From contig JALCMG010000001.1 in NCBI GenBank assembly GCA_022648325.1, positions 124,001 to 188,000 of the forward strand: a DNA stretch of 64,000 bases, written 5' to 3'. The translations under genes and the position numbers were made by a program. This DNA comes from Olsenella sp. Its GTDB lineage: Bacteria > Actinomycetota > Coriobacteriia > Coriobacteriales > Atopobiaceae. Positions 23,556 to 35,943 of this stretch are shown piece by piece (position 1 is the first letter of the stretch; every line of letters begins with the position of its first letter). Under the pieces are notes generated by a model, which was not told where the DNA came from, did not search any database, and was given only the letters and a program-made list of their open reading frames with translations.

Positions 23556-25826
23556 ATGGCACTACGTGAAGAATGGCAGGGCTTCTCGGCAGGTCACTGG
23601 ACGGCCGACGTGAACGTCCGTGACTTCATCCAGCGCAACTACACCCAGTACGAGGGCGACGAGTCGTTCCTCGCCGGGCCCACCGAGGCCACCGACAAGC
23701 TCTGGGGCAAGGTCCAGGAGCTCCAGAAGCAGGAGCGCTCCAACGGCGGCGTGCTCGACTGCGAGACCGAGGTCGTCTCGGGCCTCACCGCATACGGCCC
23801 CGGCTACATCGACCCCGAGCTCAAGGACCTCGAGAAGGTCGTTGGCCTTCAGACCGACAAGCCCCTGAAGCGCGCCTTCATGCCCTACGGCGGCATCAAG
23901 ATGGCCCAGCAGGCGGCAGAGAGCTACGGCTACAAGATCAACTCCAAGTACGACCAGATCTTCAGTGAGTACCACAAGACCCACAACCAGGCCGTCTTTG
24001 ACGCCTACACCCCCGAGATGCGCGCCGCCCGCCACAGCCACGTAATTACTGGCCTGCCCGACACCTATGGCCGCGGCCGCATCGTGGGCGACTACCGTCG
24101 CGTGGCGCTCTACGGCATCGACTTCCTTATCGCCAAGAAGCAGGAGGACCTGCTCAACTGCGGCGACGGCACCATGACCGACGACGTCATCCGCCTGCGC
24201 GAGGAGATCTCCGAGCAGATCCGCGCGCTCAGGGGCATCAAGGCTATGGCCAAGATCTACGGCTACGACATCTCCCAGCCTGCGCGCGACGCGCACGAGG
24301 CGGTGCAGTGGCTCTACTTTGGCTACCTGGCTGCCATCAAGACCCAGAACGGCGCCGCCATGTCCGTGGGCCGCATCTCCACGTTCCTTGACATCTACAT
24401 CCAGCGCGACCTCGTGGCGGGCAAGATCGACGAGGCCCAGGCGCAGGAGCTCATCGACCACCTGGTCCTCAAGTTCCGCATGGTCAAGTTCGCGCGCATC
24501 CCCAGCTACAACGAGCTGTTCTCCGGCGACCCCGTGTGGGCCACGCTCGAGATGGCCGGCCTTGGCCAGGACGGCCGCCACATGGTGACCAAGAACGATT
24601 TCCGCTTCCTGCACACGCTCGAGAACATGGGCCCCGCGCCCGAGCCCAACCTCACGGTGCTCTACTCTAAGCGCCTGCCCGAGGCCTTCCGTCGCTACGC
24701 GGCCAAGATCTCCATCACCACCAGCTCGATCCAGTACGAGAACGACGACGTCATGCGCCCGGTGTGGGGTGACGATTACAGCATCTGCTGCTGCGTCTCG
24801 GCGACCCAGACCGGCAAGGAGATGCAGTTCTTTGGCGCCCGCGCGAACCTCGCCAAGTGCCTGAACTACGCCATCAACGGCGGCAAGGACCTCAAGTACA
24901 CCGACAAGCAGGGCAACCACATGCAGGTTGGCCCCGAGCTTGCCCCCATCACGAGCGAGTACCTCGACTACGATGAGGTCATGCACAAGTTCGGCATCAT
25001 GATGGACTGGCTGGCCGGCCTGTACGTGAACATCCTCGACCTCATCCAGTACATGCACGACAAGTACTACTACGAGGCCGCTGAGATGGCCCTCATCGAC
25101 ACCGACGTGCGCCGCACCTTCGCCACCGGCATCGCGGGCTTCAGCCACGTGGTGGACTCGCTCTCGGCCATCAAGTACGCCCGCGTGCGCACCGTGCGCG
25201 ACGAGTCCGGCCTGGTCGTCGACTACGTGCCCGAGGGCGACTTCCCGCGCTACGGCAACGACGACGACCGCGCCGACGACATCGCCGTGTGGCTGCTCAA
25301 GACCTTCATGGCCAAGATCAAGAAGCACCACACCTACCGCAACTCCGAGCCCACGACATCCATCCTCACCATCACGTCCAACGTGGTGTACGGCAAGGCC
25401 ACCGGCGCGCTGCCCGACGGCCGCCCTGCCTACACGCCCTTCTCGCCCGGTGCCAACCCCAGCTACGGCGCCGAGAAGAACGGCCTGCTCGCAAGCCTCA
25501 ACTCTGTGGCGAAGCTGCCCTACGAGTACGCACTCGACGGCATCTCCAACACGCAGACCATCAACCCCGGCGCGCTTGGCACCGACGAGCAGCAGCGCAT
25601 CGGTAACCTGGTGAACGTGCTTGACGGCTACTTTGCCAACGGCGCGCACCACCTCAACGTCAACGTCTTTGGCGTCGAGAAGCTCAAGGACGCTATGGAG
25701 CACCCCGAGAAGCCCGAGTACGCCAACTTCACGATCCGCGTCTCCGGCTATGCGGTGAAGTTCATCGACCTCACGCGCGAGCAGCAGCTCGACGTTATCG
25801 CACGCACCTGCCACGACCACATGTAG
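23556..25826 (+). CDS. pflB: Formate C-acetyltransferase (pyruvate formate-lyase)
   Basis: A 756-residue glycyl radical enzyme close to E. coli PflB in length. It cleaves pyruvate with CoA to acetyl-CoA and formate in the cytosol under anaerobic conditions. The catalytic cysteines lie in [13 protein letters not shown] (three adjacent Cys, one more than the usual pair), and the radical glycine is in RVSGYAVKF near the C-terminus. Residues W/R for pyruvate binding and the two barrel halves are intact. The ATG follows AGGAGGAAC. The gene is codon-biased (almost all C- or G-ending), as expected for high expression, and ends before a strong terminator. Confidence 0.97.
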
Positions 25827-25831
25827 GACGG

Positions 25832-26077
25832 TTACGCGAGAGGCATACTCACTAGGAGGGCCAGCTCACTTTGAGCTGGCCCTCTGCCACTTGGAATGAA
25901 TGATGTTTTCTGCTGCGAGCAGAATGCTTGATCGAGCGCAGTGGAGATACTTCGGCAATAACTCCTTCCTCGGTTTGTTCCCACTGACCCACAACTGGCC
26001 AGGCCCAGGCACACGACCATGACGCACGTAAGGGCGACCGTCCATGTGCAGAGCTTGGCTTTCCTCATGTTTGCCAT
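25832..26077 (-). CDS. Small putative lipoprotein, possibly a truncated gene
   Basis: The ATG at 26077 is preceded by GAGGG. The first 30 residues are a convincing lipoprotein signal: MRKAK, a hydrophobic core VALTCVMVVCLGLA, and the lipobox LASC with Cys at residue 29. The remaining 52 residues are unlike a structured protein and run across the pflB terminator sequence read backwards, so the 3' part is probably not original. I read this as the signal peptide of a lipoprotein gene whose body was lost, though a real 81-residue lipoprotein cannot be excluded. Confidence 0.45.
   Translation of the reverse strand: MANMRKAKLCTWTVALTCVMVVCLGLASCGSVGTNRGRSYCRSISTALDQAFCSQQKTSFIPSGRGPAQSELALLVSMPLA
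25856..25884 (+). terminator. Terminator after pflB
   Basis: A perfect 13-bp stem (25856-25868 with 25872-25884) around a 3-base loop, 30 bases after the pflB stop. The trailing T-run is poor, but the stem is the strongest in the area. Confidence 0.75.
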
Positions 26078-26141
26078 TCGCGAGACCCTCGACTCATAGG
26101 CGGCGTAAACGGATAATCAGGCTGTCTCGTCAACCGGCGGA

Positions 26142-26174
26142 GTCGCGCCTCACACGGGGCGCGTGGATTGAAAC
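26142..26174 (+). CRISPR. Solitary type I-C-like CRISPR repeat, no array
   Basis: A 33-base element that begins GTCGCGCC, has an 8-bp stem (26144-26151 with 26156-26163, one G-T pair) around the loop ACAC, and ends with GTGGATTGAAAC, the standard 3' handle of type I-C repeats. No second repeat was found within the window and no cas gene is present. The element ends 20 bases before the start codon of the YdcF-like gene, so it is now in that gene's 5' region. Most likely a relic terminal repeat of a deleted array. Confidence 0.72.
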
Positions 26175-26194
26175 TTCTGTTCACGGAGGTCCGT

Positions 26195-26935
26195 ATGTCA
26201 CTCCTGCTCATCGCACTCGGGGCGGCTTCGATCGCCTACGGCGTCTCGGTCATGCTTATCTGGTCCGGCTCGGCTTTCTTCGCGGTGTGGTACGCAATCG
26301 GCGCTGCGCTGGCAGGATGCGGCATCGCCATGCGCCAGGACATATGGCAGGCACTTCCCTGGGCGCTGCGCGTTTTAGTCGGCGTGGTGGCAGCGCTCGC
26401 TGGAGCGATAACACTCGGCGTGGCCGCGCTTATCCTCACGACGGCCCACACGCCCGCGCCCGGAGACCTCGACGCGCTCGTCGTGCTGGGTGCGCAGGTC
26501 CGCTCCGACGGCTCCCCCAGCACCGTGCTTCGCTACCGCCTGGACACCGCGGCCGATTACCTGATTGACAACCCCGGCACACGCTGCATCGTCTCGGGCG
26601 GCAGGGGTGCCAACGAGCCCTGCACCGAGGCGGAGGGCATGGCCCGCTACCTCGAGTCGCGTGGCATCGACGCGAGTCGTATCCAGCTCGAGGGCGCCTC
26701 GACCAACACGGTCGAGAACCTCCGCAACTCGAAGGCGCTTCTCGATGCCTCCAGCGATCGGGTCGGCATCGTGACAAACGACTTCCACCTGCTGCGCGCC
26801 ATGCGTATCGCGGCCAAGCAAGGCTACGTGAACGCACACGGCATCGCCGCCCCCTCGGATGCATGGTACATGCCGAACAACGTGCTCCGCGAGGTCATGG
26901 GCATCGCAAGGGACTTCTTGCTCGGCAATATATAA
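26195..26935 (+). CDS. YdcF/SanA-like DUF218 membrane protein
   Basis: The ATG at 26195 follows CACGGAGGTCC; a start 9 codons earlier has no ribosome site. The 246-residue protein has three N-terminal membrane helices (about 2-24, 28-46, 52-75) and then a DUF218 domain: LDALVVLGAQVRSDGSPS, the CIVSGGRG loop, the EAEGMARYLESRGI helix and TNDFHLLRA. ElyC and SanA of this family affect envelope assembly and permeability; the exact reaction is not known. It stands alone, with the CRISPR-like hairpin just upstream of its ribosome site, which could affect its translation. Confidence 0.85.
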   Translation: MSLLLIALGAASIAYGVSVMLIWSGSAFFAVWYAIGAALAGCGIAMRQDIWQALPWALRVLVGVVAALAGAITLGVAALILTTAHTPAPGDLDALVVLGAQVRSDGSPSTVLRYRLDTAADYLIDNPGTRCIVSGGRGANEPCTEAEGMARYLESRGIDASRIQLEGASTNTVENLRNSKALLDASSDRVGIVTNDFHLLRAMRIAAKQGYVNAHGIAAPSDAWYMPNNVLREVMGIARDFLLGNI

Positions 26936-27530
26936 GGCCTCGAGGTGTACGACCAGCGGCTATAAGGATGTAGCCCACGGCCCACCGGCTACGGACTACT
27001 TCTTATGCATCCACCTGCGGCGGTGCTAGCTTGCTAGCAAACTACACCCCCCACCTGGCAAGCCCTCGGCGCATGGGACAAGCGCTTCAATCGGCAAGAC
27101 ATGTATGCCGTCGGGCGCCACATACGTCGGCATCGCATGCCCGATGACGACGCGCTTTACAGACGAACGCCTCGAGACATCCGGCGTTATGCCTCTCGAG
27201 AATCACAGACAAGCCGACAGCCATCCTCTATAGTGCCGTCGTCACTGCCTTGCGCATGCAGTCGGACCACTCCCTCTCCCCAAAGTCAATGGCGACGGCC
27301 ATTGAGCATGGGAACTTCACGTTGACGTTTACGAGGGACTCCCAGAAAGCGCTGGCCTCCCCCTGCGGGCGTACCATTCACTCGCCCAGCTCCCCTGGGT
27401 AGCCCCCATGCTCGCACGTCTCCCACCGTAGGTCATCAAACTGCCCATCCTCGGGGAGCGACAGCTGCTCGACGGCACTATTTTCCTACCTTTGTTGGAC
27501 TCGGACGCAACATCGGCAGCGGACCAAGCG
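26936..27530. other. Gene-poor stretch, probably decayed DNA
   Basis: Nearly 600 bases without an intact gene or good ribosome site on either strand. Several short frames give protein-like phrases broken by stops (for example ATYVGIACPMTTRFTDERLE near 27120-27180), which suggests a degraded gene, but I cannot name it. Composition is mixed. No repeats or tRNA were recognised. Confidence 0.5.
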
Positions 27531-28586
27531 CTATTTGACCAATCGGAATCCAAAGCCATCCCGGATATAGGGAAGCAAACGAGTGTCTCCATCGGACACA
27601 CTCCCGACGACATTCATGCGAGCATCTCCTGCCAGTTCGCGGCGAGCGATCTCGAGCTCTCCCTCATACCGCTGATACTCACTATTAGAGACCGCGATTG
27701 TTCCCGCGGGCCTTTCACGGCCCGCGCCGTTATCGGGAACGATTGGACCAGGCCTCAGGCTTGTCCGAGACTCCTGCGACCTGATGATATCCTCTGAGGA
27801 ATCAGGCCGGTCGTGATGCACCTGGCGATACAGATAGCTGTAGCGCTCATCGATGGAGGCAGCCAGATTGACATATCCCTCGGATAGTTGATGGAATCGT
27901 TCCCAGGACTCATCCGTCAACCCTGGATCGCCTACTAGCACGATGTCGCACCCTGCGCCATATGACGCTTCAAGCATATTGAGAGCCAGATCGTCCTTCC
28001 GCTCGCGCTGTGCCTCGATCGTGGGCAGCCCCTCCTGAAGAGGGCCGCGAAGATCTCTATTGCCTGGAACGAACCCCATCACGTCAAAACCGAATGCTGC
28101 CAGACGATCGTTAATTCGGCGCACGCCTTCTGCCGCGAGGCCGGTATACCGTTTGGGGTAAAAATTATGACAGGCAGCAAATCGCGAAAAATCAGCGCCC
28201 GCGGTACGCCAAGCTCCAACTTCCGCCTTTGTTGCCGTCGAAGCATTAAACACAATATGAAACACTCGCGAGAGCGCAACTGTTTGCTCAGCCGAGAATC
28301 CATAATCGAGCCGGATATGGGTAATGCCAAGATCTCGAAGCTCCCCGAGCCTGTTGCACCCTAACTTTTCGCACGTATCTGGGCCGACATCAACTATCAG
28401 AGCCATTCCGGCATTTCGCAACAACTTCAGTAGATGCCGGGCAGCATGTTGATAAGCAATCCCCTCCTCTTCCGGGATATGCATCGAGGTGAACGCATAT
28501 GCTGCGCCAGCTTTACGAGCACGCTCTATCAACCGCTCGTTATGCTCTATACCGTCACTGAAGTAGACAGAGATTCCAGTTTTCAC
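27531..28586 (-). CDS. mupG: 6-phospho-N-acetylmuramidase (MupG/DUF871 family)
   Basis: I chose the GTG at 28586 because GGGAGG lies 5 bases upstream and family members begin close to the first strand (KTGISVYFSDG). The 351-residue protein has the DUF871 layout: a TIM-barrel half (AFTSMHIPEEEG, LIVDVGPDTCEKLG, HIRLDYGFS, FHIVFNAS, CHNFYPKRYTGL, GFVPGNRDLRGPLQEGLPTIE) and a C-terminal small domain. MupG splits MurNAc-6-phosphate from the intracellular disaccharide GlcNAc-MurNAc-6P or related sugars during wall recycling. It follows murP and murQ on the same strand. A hairpin lies between murP and this gene. Confidence 0.9.
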   Translation of the reverse strand: MKTGISVYFSDGIEHNERLIERARKAGAAYAFTSMHIPEEEGIAYQHAARHLLKLLRNAGMALIVDVGPDTCEKLGCNRLGELRDLGITHIRLDYGFSAEQTVALSRVFHIVFNASTATKAEVGAWRTAGADFSRFAACHNFYPKRYTGLAAEGVRRINDRLAAFGFDVMGFVPGNRDLRGPLQEGLPTIEAQRERKDDLALNMLEASYGAGCDIVLVGDPGLTDESWERFHQLSEGYVNLAASIDERYSYLYRQVHHDRPDSSEDIIRSQESRTSLRPGPIVPDNGAGRERPAGTIAVSNSEYQRYEGELEIARRELAGDARMNVVGSVSDGDTRLLPYIRDGFGFRLVK

Positions 28587-28607
28587 CACTACCTCCCATC
28601 GAATAAA

Positions 28608-28650
28608 GCGGGGCACTTCCGCAAACGCAAAGCGCTGCGGAAGTGCCCGC
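28608..28650 (-). terminator. Hairpin between murP and mupG (intra-operon terminator or attenuator)
   Basis: Arms 28608-28623 and 28636-28650 pair over 15 bases with one bulge. On the minus strand the stem is followed by TTTATT, so it could partly stop transcripts coming from murP and lower mupG expression. Confidence 0.6.
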
Positions 28651-28678
28651 TTACTCCATGGCGCTTGAGCGATAAGGA

Positions 28679-30109
28679 CTATTCGCCGTAGAACTCGTTG
28701 ATTCGCTGCTCATCCACACCGAAGAACCAGGTAAGGACAAAACCGCCCGCATAGGCGGCGAGCATGGCAAGCACGTAGAACAACTGCTGCCCGGGAACCA
28801 CGATCAGCAGGCCAAACAGGCCTGACACTCCCTGGGAAACCGTACCGATGTGGAACAAGGCCGCTAGGATACCGCCAAATCCGGCGCCAAGGCATGCAGT
28901 CACGAACGGCTTCACCAGAGGGAGCGTCACCGCATACATAAGGGGCTCACCAATGCCGAGGATGCCGACAGGGATAGAGTCGCCAATAAACTTACGGAGT
29001 TTCTTGTTCTTGGTCTTGAGGTACAGCGCCAGACCGGCTCCCACCTGACCACCGCCCGCCATCATCAAAATGGGCAGCAGGTAGTTGATACCGTGCGTCG
29101 CGCCATTCGGATCATTCAGAAGAGCATGAATGGGCGTAAGGGCCTGATGCAGACCGACAGAAACGAGCGGGAGGAAGCCAGCGGCCAGGATATATCCACC
29201 AACGATGCCCATCTTCTCATACACGAACGAAAGAACGGCGAAAATCCCCGTGGTCAACCAGGCGCCCAACGGCTGGATGACCAGCATGAGAGCAAAGGCA
29301 CCGATGACTAGCACGCACAGCGGAGTAAGAAAGGTGTCCACGATGTTGGGCATCACCTTGCGAATCTGCTTCTCCAGGAAGGCAAAGAACGCGCCTGCGA
29401 TGAGGGCGGCAATCATACCGCCGGCGGCCGGGTTGTAGGCAGCATTGGTTAGCGGAAGCAGTATTGCCTTATCGGGATCAGCTGCACCCGCAGCAAGCAG
29501 CGGCATGGCTGCGTTGGCGATGCACATCATGCCGGCGATGCCGCCAAGGGACGCGGAACCGCCGAATTCGCGCGCCGCATTGTAACCAACCAAGATGGGC
29601 AGGTAAGCAAAGAGCGCCCAACCCATGGAACGGATACCCTGGTACCACCAGGCCTCAGCAAACATGTTGCCAGAGGCAACATTGATAACGTTGCAGATGC
29701 CGTTGATCAGGCCCGCGGCGATGATACCGGGAAGCAGTGCGACGAAGATATTGGCGATCTTTTTCATGAACGCCTGGACAGGCTTATGCTCGTACTTGGC
29801 CTTCTGGGCAGCCTTGTTCTCGGCAGCAGCGTCTGTCACGCTTTCTTCCGCCACGCCTTTGGCAAGACCGGTGAGCTTGGAGAACTCCTCCAGTACCTTG
29901 TTGACCTTACCCGGACCAAGTATGATCTGCATCGTCTCGTCTTCGACCACGCCCATCACGCCGTCGAGCGCCTTGATGCCGGCGACGTCTACCTTGTCCA
30001 AATCTCGTACGGTCACACGCAGGCGAGTCATGCAAGCGGCGTTTGCCGTCACATTCTCCTTCCCGCCGAGCAGAGCGAGCAGCTTCTCGCTCAATTCTTT
30101 GTCGCTCAT
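28679..30109 (-). CDS. murP: PTS EIIBC component for N-acetylmuramic acid
   Basis: A 476-residue glucose-superfamily PTS permease. The N-terminal EIIB domain (1-90) has the phosphorylated Cys in NAACMTRLRV (about residue 26); the EIIC membrane domain follows from about 110 with the substrate-loop motif GIGEPLMYAV. As in E. coli MurP, no EIIA is attached, so phosphate must come from an EIIA encoded elsewhere. It imports MurNAc as MurNAc-6-phosphate, the substrate of the MurQ etherase encoded 79 bases upstream. The specificity is taken from the neighbours murQ and mupG. The ATG follows AAGGAG. Confidence 0.88.
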   Translation of the reverse strand: MSDKELSEKLLALLGGKENVTANAACMTRLRVTVRDLDKVDVAGIKALDGVMGVVEDETMQIILGPGKVNKVLEEFSKLTGLAKGVAEESVTDAAAENKAAQKAKYEHKPVQAFMKKIANIFVALLPGIIAAGLINGICNVINVASGNMFAEAWWYQGIRSMGWALFAYLPILVGYNAAREFGGSASLGGIAGMMCIANAAMPLLAAGAADPDKAILLPLTNAAYNPAAGGMIAALIAGAFFAFLEKQIRKVMPNIVDTFLTPLCVLVIGAFALMLVIQPLGAWLTTGIFAVLSFVYEKMGIVGGYILAAGFLPLVSVGLHQALTPIHALLNDPNGATHGINYLLPILMMAGGGQVGAGLALYLKTKNKKLRKFIGDSIPVGILGIGEPLMYAVTLPLVKPFVTACLGAGFGGILAALFHIGTVSQGVSGLFGLLIVVPGQQLFYVLAMLAAYAGGFVLTWFFGVDEQRINEFYGE

Positions 30110-30188
30110 TGTCGCTCTCCTTCTAACGATACGGTACGTCCTATAACTACGCTAGCCTTCCAACTGGGAATGGCTATCAACAACCTGA

Positions 30189-31082
30189 CTACGCGAGCGC
30201 AGCTCGAACATGCCCTTTCGCCTTAGCCAACCGGGCGCGTGCGTCATCGGCATTGCAGCCCAGCAAGACCATGACAACTGCCACTTTCACATATCCGCCA
30301 GCTTGGGCAAGAGCCTCTTTCGCCTCAGCACGCGTACACTCCGTGGCTTGCATCACGATGTTCTGCGCTCGCACGACAAGCTTCTCGTTCGTCTGCTGCA
30401 CGTCGACCATAAGGTTCTGGTATGCCTTGCCCGCACCGACCATGCTGCCCGTGGAGATCATGTTCAGGATGAGCTTTTGGACCGTCCCTGCCTTCAAGCG
30501 CGTCGAACCGGTGAGCACTTCAGGACCCGGCACCGGCTCGATTGCGAGCTCGGCTTCGGCCCCAATCTCCGATTCCCGATTGCAGGCGATGGCAACCGTC
30601 CTGCAGCCCACTGCCCGCGCATAGCGCAGGGCATATACGACATACGGGGTGCGTCCACTGGCAGCCAGCCCAATCACGATGTCATTTTTAGAGAGGCCGA
30701 TGTCCTTGAGGTCATCCGTGCCCATCGTATGGCTGTCCTCAGCACCCTCAACCGCCTTCGCAAACGCTCTCTCTCCACCGGCGATGAGCCCAATCACCAA
30801 ATCGGGTGAAACGCCGAATGTCGGGGGACACTCCACCGCATCCAGTACGCCCAGCCTGCCGCTCGTTCCCGCACCCATATAGACGATGCGACCGCCGCAC
30901 CTGAGCGCCTCGGCCGCCCATTCGATAGCCTTGGCGATCTGGGGCAGCACTTCGGTAACGGAAGCAACCGCTTTTGCATCCTCTCGGTTCATGGCGGTAG
31001 CAATCTGCAGCGGGGTCATCTGGTCGAGGTCCATGGTTTGGGGATTACGCGTCTCAGTGGACAGCCTCGTCAAATCGATCAT
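30189..31082 (-). CDS. murQ: N-acetylmuramic acid 6-phosphate etherase
   Basis: A 297-residue SIS-domain protein with the MurQ signature: TETRNPQTMDLDQM at the N-terminus, YMGAGTSGRLGVLDAVECPPTFG, and the catalytic stretch GLAASGRTPYVVYAL. It cleaves the lactyl ether of MurNAc-6P to give GlcNAc-6P and lactate in the cytosol. Length equals the E. coli enzyme. It lies between the RpiR-type regulator and murP, all on the minus strand. The ATG is followed by a clean reading; GGAGATGAG is the ribosome site. Confidence 0.95.
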   Translation of the reverse strand: MIDLTRLSTETRNPQTMDLDQMTPLQIATAMNREDAKAVASVTEVLPQIAKAIEWAAEALRCGGRIVYMGAGTSGRLGVLDAVECPPTFGVSPDLVIGLIAGGERAFAKAVEGAEDSHTMGTDDLKDIGLSKNDIVIGLAASGRTPYVVYALRYARAVGCRTVAIACNRESEIGAEAELAIEPVPGPEVLTGSTRLKAGTVQKLILNMISTGSMVGAGKAYQNLMVDVQQTNEKLVVRAQNIVMQATECTRAEAKEALAQAGGYVKVAVVMVLLGCNADDARARLAKAKGHVRAALA

Positions 31083-31138
31083 TTCTCATCTCCTCTCCTA
31101 AAATCGGGGTATCTCGCCCCACTCGCGTCGCTTGCCGC

Positions 31139-31987
31139 TCACTTCTTCTCGTCGTAGTTGTGACGCATCACATTCGTGCACCGTTCGAAATCCTTTGTCA
31201 CGTATACGGCGAACAATGCGTCAACAACCATGAGCTGAGACATGCGTGACGCCATGGCAGCACTGCGCACCAGCGGCTCACTCGCAGCGATGCCGAGCAC
31301 CCAATCGGCCTCCTCGCACAGCCTTCCAGCACCCAAAGCCCGGGTTACTGCGATAACCTTTGCTCCTCGCTTATGAGCAAAACGAGCCGCCTCGATCATC
31401 TCTCTCGTCATGCCCGAATAGCTGAAAACCACAGCCAAGTCATCCTTATGCATGTTCTTGGCACAAAGCATCTGGTTGTGCCAATCGTCGTATACATGAC
31501 ATTCCTTGTCTGCTCGGACCAACTTGAGCTGAAGATCTCGGGCTGCCAATAGCGAGGCACCAACACCGAACAAATCGATGATTCTGCTATGCACCATCGC
31601 AATGGCACACCGTTCAAGCGTTGGAATATCAAGCAAGCGCTCTGTCGCTTCTATAGAACGAATGTTGCTGTTCATCACCTTCTTTACTACGCGGGCGGCG
31701 ACGTCATTTGGGGTGATGTCATCTAGCGAGATGTCGTCTCCTTCGCCCATGGACGCCAGTTCGTATATCAGCTCACGCTGAAAATCTTTGTAGCCATCGC
31801 ATCCCAGCGTGCGACAGAAGCGGACGACCGTCGAAGCAGAGGTGTTCGTAGTTACCGCAAGGTCATGGATGCTCTGCGAGACAACTGCCTGCGGATTTTT
31901 GTCGATGTAATCAAGGATGCTCCGCACCGCAGGACTCGCATCCTGCTTCCGTTCCCTCATGCGTAAGAAAAGCCCCCCGCTTGGCAT
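31139..31987 (-). CDS. RpiR-family regulator of the MurNAc cluster (MurR-like)
   Basis: A 282-residue regulator with an N-terminal helix-turn-helix (SIHDLAVTTNTSASTVVRFCRTLGCDG) and a C-terminal SIS domain (IDLFGVGASLLAARDLQLKL, VVFSYSGMTREMIEAARFA) that binds a phosphosugar. First gene of the minus-strand murR-murQ-murP-mupG cluster, so the effector is probably MurNAc-6P as for E. coli MurR. An ATG at 31960 (MRERKQ) is an alternative start; the one at 31987 has GGGGAAG just upstream. A 19-base palindrome in the divergent spacer is the likely operator. Confidence 0.88.
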   Translation of the reverse strand: MPSGGLFLRMRERKQDASPAVRSILDYIDKNPQAVVSQSIHDLAVTTNTSASTVVRFCRTLGCDGYKDFQRELIYELASMGEGDDISLDDITPNDVAARVVKKVMNSNIRSIEATERLLDIPTLERCAIAMVHSRIIDLFGVGASLLAARDLQLKLVRADKECHVYDDWHNQMLCAKNMHKDDLAVVFSYSGMTREMIEAARFAHKRGAKVIAVTRALGAGRLCEEADWVLGIAASEPLVRSAAMASRMSQLMVVDALFAVYVTKDFERCTNVMRHNYDEKK

Positions 31988-32041
31988 CTCTTCCCCTTCC
32001 GTTGCCCCACATTAAACACATATAGTCAGAATCTGTCATCG

Positions 32042-32060
32042 TTTTGTCTTAAATACAAAA
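32042..32060. promoter_or_regulatory. Candidate operator for the MurNAc regulator
   Basis: TTTTGT (32042-32047) and ACAAAA (32055-32060) form a symmetric site with a 7-base AT-rich spacer, in the spacer between the regulator gene and the divergent PBP4B-like gene. It is placed to control both sides. The assignment rests on position and symmetry only. Confidence 0.5.
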
Positions 32061-32253
32061 CTTTATTTCATGTTTGGTAAAAAGCCGACCATTTCCCAGC
32101 CGCTTGCCATGGAAAGCCAACCGTTTGAAAGTTGTGCAGGCGAGATATTTGCCATCTTGGCAAACCGCTCAAGATTTTCCACGGACTACGAGTATCGTTC
32201 GCCTCGCCATCGCATCGAGAGTTGTTGGACAGTTCAGCTGAGGAGAAACGAGT

Positions 32254-34227
32254 ATGGAAAAGGGCAGTCTCCTTCGTCAGCCTTCGATTTCCCGCAGAAG
32301 TCTCCTGTTGAATGGCACCGCTATCGCTGGCGTCGGGGCCTTGATAGGACTTTTCGGATGCAGCAACACGGGTGTCGAATCGGGCGGTGCTGTGGCGGAT
32401 AACAAGGCTACGGGCTCCGTGACAAATGGTGTCAAAGCAGATGGTAGCTACCAGCTCGATAAGACCTTCCCTGTACTTGCCGATAGCGATGCCTTCGACG
32501 ACTCCCTTATCACGAATGCCATGGATACCTTCATTGGCTTCGAGAAGCAAGGGTCGCTTCTCGTCAACGCTACTGATCCGTCAAAGTTCAAAATCTTCGT
32601 TAACGGAACTACCGTAGCTCTGGATGACATAGAGAAAGACGATTGGGCTTTAATCGATATATCGTCCATCACGGTTAATGGCAACAACAGACTCCAGGTA
32701 AGTGGAATCGATGCTGGCAAAGATACGATAGCGGTCCGCATCCCCTATCCAGAGCTCGTCGATGCCACCGATGAGTACAGGAACAACGACAACTTCAAAC
32801 TGTTGGATGAGATCATTCAGGCAGAAATTGATAACGGATTCACGTCTGCTCAACTGGTTGTTGCCCGCAATGGGCGAATCATAAAGCAGTCAGCCTACGG
32901 GCAATGCAATTCCTATTCAAAAGATGGGAAACGTCTGAATGATGGAGCGAAGGTCACCAACGACACGCTATACGATCTTGCAAGCAATACGAAAATGTAT
33001 TGCACAAACTATGCGGTGCAAAAGCTAGCCTCAGAAGGCAAGCTCAAGGTGACGGAGCTTGTGAGTGCCTACATCCCAGAATTCAAGGACCAGCCAAATG
33101 ATGCCATCAAAGGCAAGGACGTGCTGACTGTGCAGGAAATCCTTCAGCACCAGGCGGGATTCCCTGCCGATCCCCAGTATCACAATATCGATTACAACCC
33201 TGCTACGAAAAAGACTGAGGCAGGGAGCCGTGCCAATCAGGCTCTGTACACACAGAAGCGCGACGAAGCTCTGAAGAAGATCATCGAAACGCCACTTGAA
33301 TACATGCCTGGGACCAGCACGAAGTACTCCGATGTCGACTATATGCTTCTCGGATTCATCGTCGAAAAGATCACCGGTCAGCGACTCGATGAATATGTTG
33401 GTGACTCTTTCTATAAGCCTCTCGGCCTCAAGCACGTTACGTTCAATCCGCTCGATAACGGCTTCACCAAGGATGACTGCGCCGCCACAGAGCTCAACGG
33501 CAACACGCGCGATGGCGTGATTAGCTTTGAGAACATTCGCACTGACACCATTCAGGGCGAAGTACACGACGAAAAGGCCTTCTATACCATGGAAGGAATT
33601 TCGGGGCACGCGGGTCTCTTCTCAAATGCAAGGGATCTTGCGGTCCTTACCCAAATCATCATCAACCGTGGTGGCTACGGTGATCACCGCTTCTTTGATG
33701 GGGATACGCTTGATCAGTTTATCAAGCCAAAAGATACCAATGCGAGCTATGGCTTGGGCTGGCGTCGCAAGGCAACCTCATTGTACTCGTGGGCGTTCTC
33801 CCCCATCTCAGATACCTCGACCGTCGGACATACCGGCTGGACCGGAACACTCACCGTTATTGATCCTGTCGAGAACGTTTCTGTTGTCCTGCTTACCAAC
33901 ACAAAGAACAGCCCAGTTCTGGATAAGGAGGCGAACCCTAACGACTTCGTCGGCAACCATTACCTCACCGGAAACTACGGAATGCCCGCTACCATCTCCT
34001 TTGATGACGAGGGGGCAAATGCCGACTGCAACGATGCCAAGCTTATCGACCTCATTCGAGCAAAGTATCAACTTATCGATACAAACGTAGCGTATCAGAC
34101 CAATCCCGACATAGCTGAACTAAAAGCGCTCATGAGTATCGCCGATCAGCGGAAGGACAGCGAGCTGATCTCGGCATTCAAAAAGACCGAGGTCTGGGAG
34201 AGCGCCGACAATCTTGCTGGCAAATAA
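32254..34227 (+). CDS. PBP4B/YfeW-like serine hydrolase (beta-lactamase fold) with twin-arginine lipoprotein signal
   Basis: A 657-residue exported protein. Its start SRRSLLLNGTAIAGVGALIGLFGC combines a twin-arginine motif with a lipobox, so it should be a lipoprotein on the outer face of the membrane. An N-terminal beta-rich part (about 60-180) is followed by a class C beta-lactamase/PBP fold: SxxK in ASNTKMY (Ser nucleophile), a tyrosine motif at YSDVDY, and HTGWTG near the end as the K-T-G equivalent. In E. coli, yfeW (PBP4B) is also beside murQ-murP, supporting a role in releasing or trimming peptidoglycan pieces for uptake. Base composition is visibly lower in GC than the window average, like the regulator gene next to it. 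The ATG follows GAGGAGAAACG. Confidence 0.85.
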   Translation: MEKGSLLRQPSISRRSLLLNGTAIAGVGALIGLFGCSNTGVESGGAVADNKATGSVTNGVKADGSYQLDKTFPVLADSDAFDDSLITNAMDTFIGFEKQGSLLVNATDPSKFKIFVNGTTVALDDIEKDDWALIDISSITVNGNNRLQVSGIDAGKDTIAVRIPYPELVDATDEYRNNDNFKLLDEIIQAEIDNGFTSAQLVVARNGRIIKQSAYGQCNSYSKDGKRLNDGAKVTNDTLYDLASNTKMYCTNYAVQKLASEGKLKVTELVSAYIPEFKDQPNDAIKGKDVLTVQEILQHQAGFPADPQYHNIDYNPATKKTEAGSRANQALYTQKRDEALKKIIETPLEYMPGTSTKYSDVDYMLLGFIVEKITGQRLDEYVGDSFYKPLGLKHVTFNPLDNGFTKDDCAATELNGNTRDGVISFENIRTDTIQGEVHDEKAFYTMEGISGHAGLFSNARDLAVLTQIIINRGGYGDHRFFDGDTLDQFIKPKDTNASYGLGWRRKATSLYSWAFSPISDTSTVGHTGWTGTLTVIDPVENVSVVLLTNTKNSPVLDKEANPNDFVGNHYLTGNYGMPATISFDDEGANADCNDAKLIDLIRAKYQLIDTNVAYQTNPDIAELKALMSIADQRKDSELISAFKKTEVWESADNLAGK

Positions 34228-34605
34228 CTGAGGACAATAGAGAAGCAAGCAGATCATTTGACGAGCTAACTCTTGGCAACAAGCTAGCCTAGATGTCTGC
34301 CACGCCCCGATGGACGCCATTGTACAGGCGCCTGGCAGTTCCGCCCTGGACTCGAATCGGGGTTGGAACCGCTCTTTTTAGGCTCTCCCCTATTTCGGGT
34401 GAGTAGCCAATGAAGTGGCGAGCTGGGCCGAGAAGCCCAGCCGCCCGAGCCCGAGGAATGCCACTGTGTCTTAAAGTACTCGATGTTCCTGAACCCCCTC
34501 CCCACCCCTTTGATGGGCTGGGCTATCGAGCCAAGCCATCCAGCCAACGAAAAGCAGCACCGGGTAGCCCAACGCACTGCAGAGATCGGCAGCGGAGCAT
34601 CAACC
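34228..34605. other. Intergenic stretch without a gene
   Basis: About 380 bases between the hydrolase and the end of the convergent MFS gene. A short perfect hairpin (34422-34428 with 34435-34441) could end MFS transcription but is 165 bases away. A fragment around 34345-34365 resembles a tRNA T-arm but no cloverleaf can be built. Confidence 0.4.
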
Positions 34606-35943
34606 TCACCTGCGCCGCCGGCCCACCGCCACCAGCGTGGGAACAACCGCCAGCGACACCAGCGCACCCGCCAGGAAGATGAGCGACGAGGGCGTGAAGC
34701 CATCGCCCACCACGCCAAAGCCGCCGATGGCTCCAGACCCAGAACTCACCGCCGACCCAATCCACGGCCCCACAAGCATGGGGACCAGCACCACCATGAA
34801 CATGCGCACGCCCTGGAGAACTCCCGCGCGGTCGGCTGGCGTGTTGTTGCGCACCTCGGCGGCAAAGCAGGCCACGGCTCCCAGGTACCCGCACAACATG
34901 AGAACCGAGCCCACAAACACGCTCACCACACTCGTGATCAGCGTGAGAGTCAGGCACCCCGCCACAAACAGCACCAGAGGCAGGCGGACGGCACGCTCGA
35001 AGCCAAGCTTGTCCAGGCGTCGACCATAAAAGATGGTGAAGACGGCTGCAATCACAATGCCCGGGGCCATCACAAACACGTATCCTTCGCCAAGCACATA
35101 GGGGAGCCGCAGGTAGAGCACGTAATACGGCATAAAGACCTGAAGCGCCGTCGAGAAGATGCAATAGCCAAGAAGCACCAGGTAGAGCACGGGGTTGCCG
35201 CGCATCGCCGCCGGTGAGAAGCCCTTGGCCACCCCGCGCAGCCGGCCCTGCTCGGTCGTCGGCTCCGGATGTGAGTCCCGCATCAAGAAGCCGGCAACCA
35301 AGGCGGCCGCGCCCACCAGCGTGCCGACCGCCACAAACAGTGCGGAGTAGTCGTAGGTCACGGTCCCGTCGTCGCCCACGCGCATGAGGGCCATCGCACC
35401 GCCAAAGACGGCGAGCATCGCGATGAGCGGCATCGCGGAGTTCACGCCCTCCACGCGTCCGCGGTTTGTCTCGTCCGTCACGTCGGTTAGCCAGGCGTTG
35501 AACGCGGCATCGTTGGAGAGGCTCCCAAAGAGGGTCATCACGCAGTCAAAGACGATGGTCAGCGTGACACCCATGCGTGCCGCACTGGCTACGTCCGGCG
35601 CAAGCGAGTCCGAGATGCCCTGGATGACAGCGAACCCGATGATTGAGACGCCCCAAAGCGCGGCGCCGGCCACCACAAAGACCTTGCGCCGGCGCACACG
35701 GTCGGACCAAGTACCCACGAACAGCGTTGTCAGCGTAGCCGTGAGCGCCGAGGCGGAGACCATGAGCGCCACGTCCTGCAGTGATGCGCCAAAGGAGTCC
35801 TGGGCGAACAGGTTGAGAAAGTTGTTTTCGACCGCCCAGGCAACCTGGCCCACAAAGGCGAGAAGCACGATGACCAGCCAAGTGGTTCGAGATATTGTGG
35901 GGTTGGTAGCACGCGATGTGGTATGCCTGGTCTTGTCTGCCAT
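34606..35943 (-). CDS. Major facilitator superfamily permease
   Basis: The ATG at 35943 follows GGGGAGGGAC; upstream in-frame ATGs lack a ribosome site. The 445-residue protein has twelve predicted membrane helices, the MFS loop 2-3 motif as GTWSDRVRRRKVF, and a cytoplasmic central loop (about 225-245). Related sequences occur with glycosidases and are annotated as sugar permeases. The GH2 glycosidase gene lies directly upstream on the same strand (152-base gap), so the two likely form a unit that imports and cleaves an oligosaccharide. No cation-binding motif allows a finer call. Confidence 0.87.
   Translation of the reverse strand: MADKTRHTTSRATNPTISRTTWLVIVLLAFVGQVAWAVENNFLNLFAQDSFGASLQDVALMVSASALTATLTTLFVGTWSDRVRRRKVFVVAGAALWGVSIIGFAVIQGISDSLAPDVASAARMGVTLTIVFDCVMTLFGSLSNDAAFNAWLTDVTDETNRGRVEGVNSAMPLIAMLAVFGGAMALMRVGDDGTVTYDYSALFVAVGTLVGAAALVAGFLMRDSHPEPTTEQGRLRGVAKGFSPAAMRGNPVLYLVLLGYCIFSTALQVFMPYYVLYLRLPYVLGEGYVFVMAPGIVIAAVFTIFYGRRLDKLGFERAVRLPLVLFVAGCLTLTLITSVVSVFVGSVLMLCGYLGAVACFAAEVRNNTPADRAGVLQGVRMFMVVLVPMLVGPWIGSAVSSGSGAIGGFGVVGDGFTPSSLIFLAGALVSLAVVPTLVAVGRRRR

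Follow-up and report, generated by a model that had tools for sequence, protein, structure and literature searches.

Does a single CRISPR-type repeat in front of a chromosomal gene mark the end of an array that has disappeared, or is it an element of another kind? This question is raised by a 33-nt sequence in a 64,000-nucleotide stretch of Olsenella sp. DNA (the whole of which is called the window here), where the repeat directly precedes a gene for a YdcF/DUF218 protein (Table 1). The evidence leans to a solitary repeat unit (SRU) in the ydcF leader over the stump of a lost array, with neither origin proven.

Table 1. Features of the ydcF locus (coordinates are those of the window)
Feature	Position	Strand	Basis
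Strain-specific slot with cargo genes, flanked by pflB and an MFS gene	25828..34612		blastn against seven same-genus genomes; Pfam
Short ORF with lipobox-like N terminus, possibly a broken gene	25832..26077	-	Plausible lipobox; no Pfam match
Sigma-70-like promoter candidate, TCGACT-17-GATAAT	26089..26117	+	Consensus scan; ends 24 nt before the repeat; weak
Solitary type I-C CRISPR repeat, 33 nt	26142..26174	+	Matches all 33 bases of a repeat in a Selenomonas flueggei type I-C array; occurs once in the genome
5' arm of repeat stem, CGCGCCTC	26144..26151	+	Fold
3' arm of repeat stem, GGGGCGCG	26156..26163	+	Fold
11-nt 3' tail, TGGATTGAAAC	26164..26174	+	Sequence
GGAGG ribosome-binding site of ydcF	26185..26189	+	Sequence
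YdcF/DUF218 protein, 246 aa, ATG start	26195..26935	+	PF02698, E 3e-32

The element, GTCGCGCCTCACACGGGGCGCGTGGATTGAAAC on the forward strand, has the same 33 bases as a repeat copy within a large type I-C array of Selenomonas flueggei, where the canonical repeat agrees with it at 32/33 positions. Its predicted fold in isolation is an 8-bp stem closed by a 4-nt loop, with the 11-nt tail left unpaired (-15.1 kcal/mol, z -2.85); one stem pair is a U-G wobble here and C-G in related arrays, and the stem is kept. The fold of a longer piece of the leader is not unusual in stability (z -0.77). In type I-C systems, the 3' tail of the repeat (TGGATTGAAAC in this case) becomes the 5' handle of the crRNA after cleavage by Cas5c.

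The 2.45-Mb genome has a single match to the template GTCGC-N-GTGGATTGAAAC; by a rough estimate, 1.5e-4 chance matches per genome are expected for its fixed bases and ∼1e-6 when the rest of the stem is included. The Rfam model CRISPR-DR9 spans the repeat from end to end, with a score of only 19.9 bits (E 0.33; gathering score 45). Because the exact 33-mer is present in a real array and so few matches with the stem are expected, we conclude that the element is a genuine lone type I-C repeat, as the initial annotation had called it. Chance resemblance, for which no supporting point was found, was rejected on the 33-base identity and is scarcely credible. As in known SRUs, the sequence closely matches a known CRISPR repeat and has its fold, and it is intergenic with flanks that contain no other full or partial repeat. 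The best other local match to the repeat covers 18/33 bases, and no degenerate, second full, or partial repeats were found in positions 25827-26700. No second repeat was detected locally or genome-wide, so that the array definition of at least two repeats with spacers does not describe this locus.

The same repeat architecture recurs in arrays of 8 out of 140 genomes from the bacterial family. Array repeats from three family members (G078, G083, and G032) are 2 bases off the window repeat (31/33), and the sister species G006 and G005 contain I-C type arrays with repeats differing by 5 and 6 bases, respectively. The type I-C arrays of the family and of S. flueggei thus share the 33-nt repeat at 31-33 of 33 bases, but they consist of many copies with spacers and a cas operon, whereas the element here is one copy only. 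The genome that contains the window (99.4% complete) has no array elsewhere and no match to Cas5d (PF09704) or Cas1 (PF01867), the only two cas families searched; both models match control genomes, and four sister species have Cas1. The initial annotation was right that the repeat stands without spacers and, for the cas genes tested, without cas genes.

The repeat and ydcF lie in a slot where the genomes of the genus diverge. When this region was compared by blastn with seven same-genus genomes, pflA-pflB was conserved at 88-95% up to positions 25826-25842, and similarity to the sisters resumed at ∼34613 in three of the seven. According to Pfam, the slot encodes in this strain the YdcF/DUF218 protein, MupG, a PTS EIIBC, a SIS-domain protein, an RpiR regulator, and a serine hydrolase, and this cargo includes genes for the use of N-acetylmuramic acid (mupG and those for the PTS EIIBC, SIS protein, and RpiR regulator). 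The cargo differs in all seven sister species compared, ydcF is absent from the slot elsewhere in the genus, and a CRISPR array was found in the slot in none of the seven genomes. Within the slot no clear phage or plasmid gene was recognized, and the neighbors look like chromosomal metabolic genes. The one PHROG match, of a tail lysin to the serine hydrolase, probably reflects a shared beta-lactamase-like fold. No tRNA was found in the window, and no plasmid match was found for the ydcF region.

Behind the repeat tail, the order is TTCTGTTCAC (10 nt), GGAGG, TCCGT (5 nt), and the ydcF ATG (26195), which places the repeat sense to ydcF and 20 nt before its start codon. This ATG is supported by the orthologues, which align from residues 1-4. 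A promoter consensus scan returned one weak match when 0.2 were expected, and if this site is live, transcription would start ∼18 nt before the repeat. Of 396 genomes of the class, 69 (this one among them) encode YdcF relatives with 36-61% identity, and no repeat was found in the ∼3.7-kb loci around the 33 orthologues examined. On the other side of the repeat, what had been described as a truncated lipoprotein start supporting a deletion is a minus-strand ORF that does have a plausible lipobox, but its truncation is not demonstrable. Between ydcF and mupG there are ∼600 nt of apparently decayed coding sequence (26936-27530), in which no Pfam family matches were found.

SRUs have been described in viruses and plasmids, frequently a short way downstream of a promoter, and several function as RNA anti-CRISPRs (PMC10651486). 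One of these, RacrIC1 from a Bifidobacterium pseudocatenulatum prophage, lies 11 nt after the prophage gene acrIC5 in one (bicistronic) transcript (PMC10651486). The element in the window resembles these SRUs and RacrIC1 in being a single I-C repeat with an intact stem and tail, intergenic, with no spacer and no cas gene. Like RacrIC1, it would share a transcript with a gene, here ydcF, with which it is predicted to be co-transcribed. The differences are that the repeat precedes a chromosomal ydcF, whereas RacrIC1 follows an acr gene, and that the present element lies in DNA with no recognizable phage or plasmid origin and in a host with no I-C system found.

The position of solitary I-C repeats in viruses was surveyed by scanning IMG/VR viral contigs with GTCGC-N10-16-GCGTGGATTGAAAC, a single repeat template, and adding earlier scans. 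Removal of arrays and contig edges left 74 solitary sites among the matches listed, 70 of them with a stem of at least 4 bp; gene calling was simple, only near-identical flanks were removed as duplicates, and the contigs may include host DNA. Among the matches listed, 16 of the 70 solitary repeats have the same orientation as an ORF of at least 60 aa whose start codon, preceded by a ribosome-binding site, lies 10-35 nt downstream. The antisense count is 2 of 70 (Fisher p 6e-4), and random positions show such a placement in 4% of cases (p 1.6e-8); the placement rule was set after inspection of the window repeat and a few viral cases. The 16 sense-placed repeats are L156:463-495 and 15 other IMG/VR sites. 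The window repeat, at 20 nt, falls within the same range. When both neighboring genes are on one strand, the repeat runs with them in 35/45 cases among the matches listed (p 2.5e-4).

In an alignment of the 36 viral repeats of 32 nt among the matches listed, the stem is 96% paired, and 33 cells are changed on both sides versus 8.8 in shuffles. Because the stem is kept by compensatory changes, the viral solitary repeats are structured repeats. The sense-placed viral repeats precede genes of many kinds (head decoration, tail chaperone, sigma factor, SbcC-like nuclease, tail lysin, and unknown), a variety that would suit a decoy carried on mRNA better than control of one gene. Neither the exact 33-mer nor its canonical variant had a match in the viral contigs, and plasmids and annotated phages gave only weak matches to arrays.

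A collapsed array is a serious rival to the SRU as an account of the element. A horizontally acquired I-C array could have lost its spacers by recombination between repeats and then its cas operon, so that one repeat was left. Such a history would fit the near-identical repeats in arrays of the family, the arrays within the genus, the behavior of the slot as a hot spot for gain and loss, and the non-coding stretches and broken-looking ORF on either side of the element. Against it, no degenerate repeats were found around the element and no Cas1 or Cas5d in the genome, and the flanks are not leader- or trailer-like: their likeness to those of related arrays or the Selenomonas array was not above shuffles (a weak test, since leaders diverge fast), with one G082 leader as a marginal exception (8 of 200 shuffles). 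In addition, no sister species has an array at the same place, the repeats of the genus are 5-6 bases different, and by a simple estimate a repeat dropped into the 368-nt gap at random, in either orientation, would come to lie this close in sense only ∼3% of the time. The proposal in the initial annotation that the repeat marks the place of a lost array is therefore unsupported by the seven same-genus genomes, in which the slot holds other cargo; we regard it as somewhat less probable than an SRU.

Other origins appear less probable. If a donor ydcF had adjoined an I-C array, the last repeat could have been carried along as a passenger, which would agree with the absence of ydcF from the slot in the rest of the genus and its occurrence elsewhere in the class, but the closest orthologue is only 61% identical and none of the examined orthologue loci has a YdcF-linked repeat, so that we consider this route unlikely. 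The initial annotation had alternatively suggested a leader hairpin, and part of this idea stood, as the geometry (sense orientation with 20 nt to the start codon, a placement shared by a significant fraction of viral solitary repeats) fits a leader element better than a lost array. A co-opted hairpin with a Cas-independent effect on ydcF translation or RNA stability is, however, highly improbable: a stable hairpin does stand directly before the ribosome-binding site, but no orthologue examined has a comparable repeat, the longer leader has no unusual stability, and the conserved unpaired tail would be needless for this role. Off-target spacer integration was dismissed by reasoning, since it would duplicate local sequence and not create a canonical repeat.

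Based on the single genomic match, the failure to find Cas5d or Cas1, the lack of an array in the slot in sister species, and the viral-like geometry, we favor a foreign origin for the element, as a solitary I-C repeat unit placed sense in the ydcF leader within a strain-specific slot, over its being the end of an array that once stood here. This assignment is tentative, and we give it close to an even chance of being correct. The repeat would be transcribed together with ydcF from the promoter-like site, and in a cell with type I-C Cas proteins, Cas5c would be expected to recognize the hairpin and cleave the RNA at the 3' base of the stem. The cut or bound ydcF transcript might then compete with genuine crRNA precursors, by analogy with what has been described for RacrIC1 (PMC10651486). 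In the present host, which has no apparent target, the element is probably silent and merely a hairpin in front of a ribosome-binding site.

The main weakness of the SRU reading is that no recognizable mobile element and no matching CRISPR system were found. The surroundings of the repeat, with their metabolic-looking genes and without a recognized phage or plasmid gene or a tRNA, argue against it, as do the weakness of the promoter match and the fact that no YdcF relative turned up in the viral contigs. A matching CRISPR-Cas subtype in the host is usual, although not obligatory, for I-C Racr elements; the tested cas genes are absent here, whereas among prophage SRUs whose hosts have cas genes, 82.9% encounter the matching subtype (PMC10651486). 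Moreover, the geometry is shared by only 16/70 viral cases among the matches listed, from IMG/VR contigs that can include host DNA.

Solitary repeats are known from phages and plasmids; the present one belongs to a chromosomal gene leader, with no matching CRISPR system detectable in the host. The apparent tendency of viral solitary I-C repeats to lie in sense a short distance (10-35 nt) upstream of a ribosome-binding site and start codon was not described in the literature searched. If confirmed with proper gene calling, the pattern would imply that RNA anti-CRISPRs are commonly carried on ordinary mRNAs, and whether Cas5c cuts or controls these messages becomes a question that can be tested. 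A more speculative idea, which we consider a long shot, is that leader SRUs form a distinct class in which a repeat before the ribosome-binding site makes the mRNA a Cas5c substrate, with the message soaking up Cas proteins and being switched or re-ended by cleavage; the chromosomal ydcF leader would then be a domesticated example.

An order-wide scan found matches to the repeat in 18 of 395 genomes, mostly in arrays. Five apparent single-repeat genomes (G030, G009, G036, G325, and G043) proved to contain arrays or a contig edge; the single copy in G325 belongs to an array with diverged copies, and that in G043 lies at a contig edge. True single copies remained only in the genome of the window and in G096, a member of the same family. 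This second lone chromosomal I-C repeat (L123:4986-5017, minus strand) follows the 3' end of a macro-domain-like gene, and AAA-ATPase and nuclease-like genes close by may form a defense island.

Repeat-like guide RNAs of the CreA/CreR type stand beside cas genes and guide Cascade. The element in the window is like them in being a single repeat-like unit followed by non-repeat sequence, but their cas genes are adjacent and none were found here. A better candidate is a degenerate single I-C repeat in G088 (GTCGCTGCCCTTAGGCGGCGTGGATTGAAAC, L116:4124-4154), which lies ∼150 nt upstream of cas3 and 8 kb before an array and is followed by ∼30 nt and a terminator-like hairpin; it looks like a guide RNA of this type for the I-C operon. 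In the sister species G005, locus L127 contains very long I-C-like arrays in which the repeat ends in GAAAT instead of GAAAC and blocks of spacers are duplicated.
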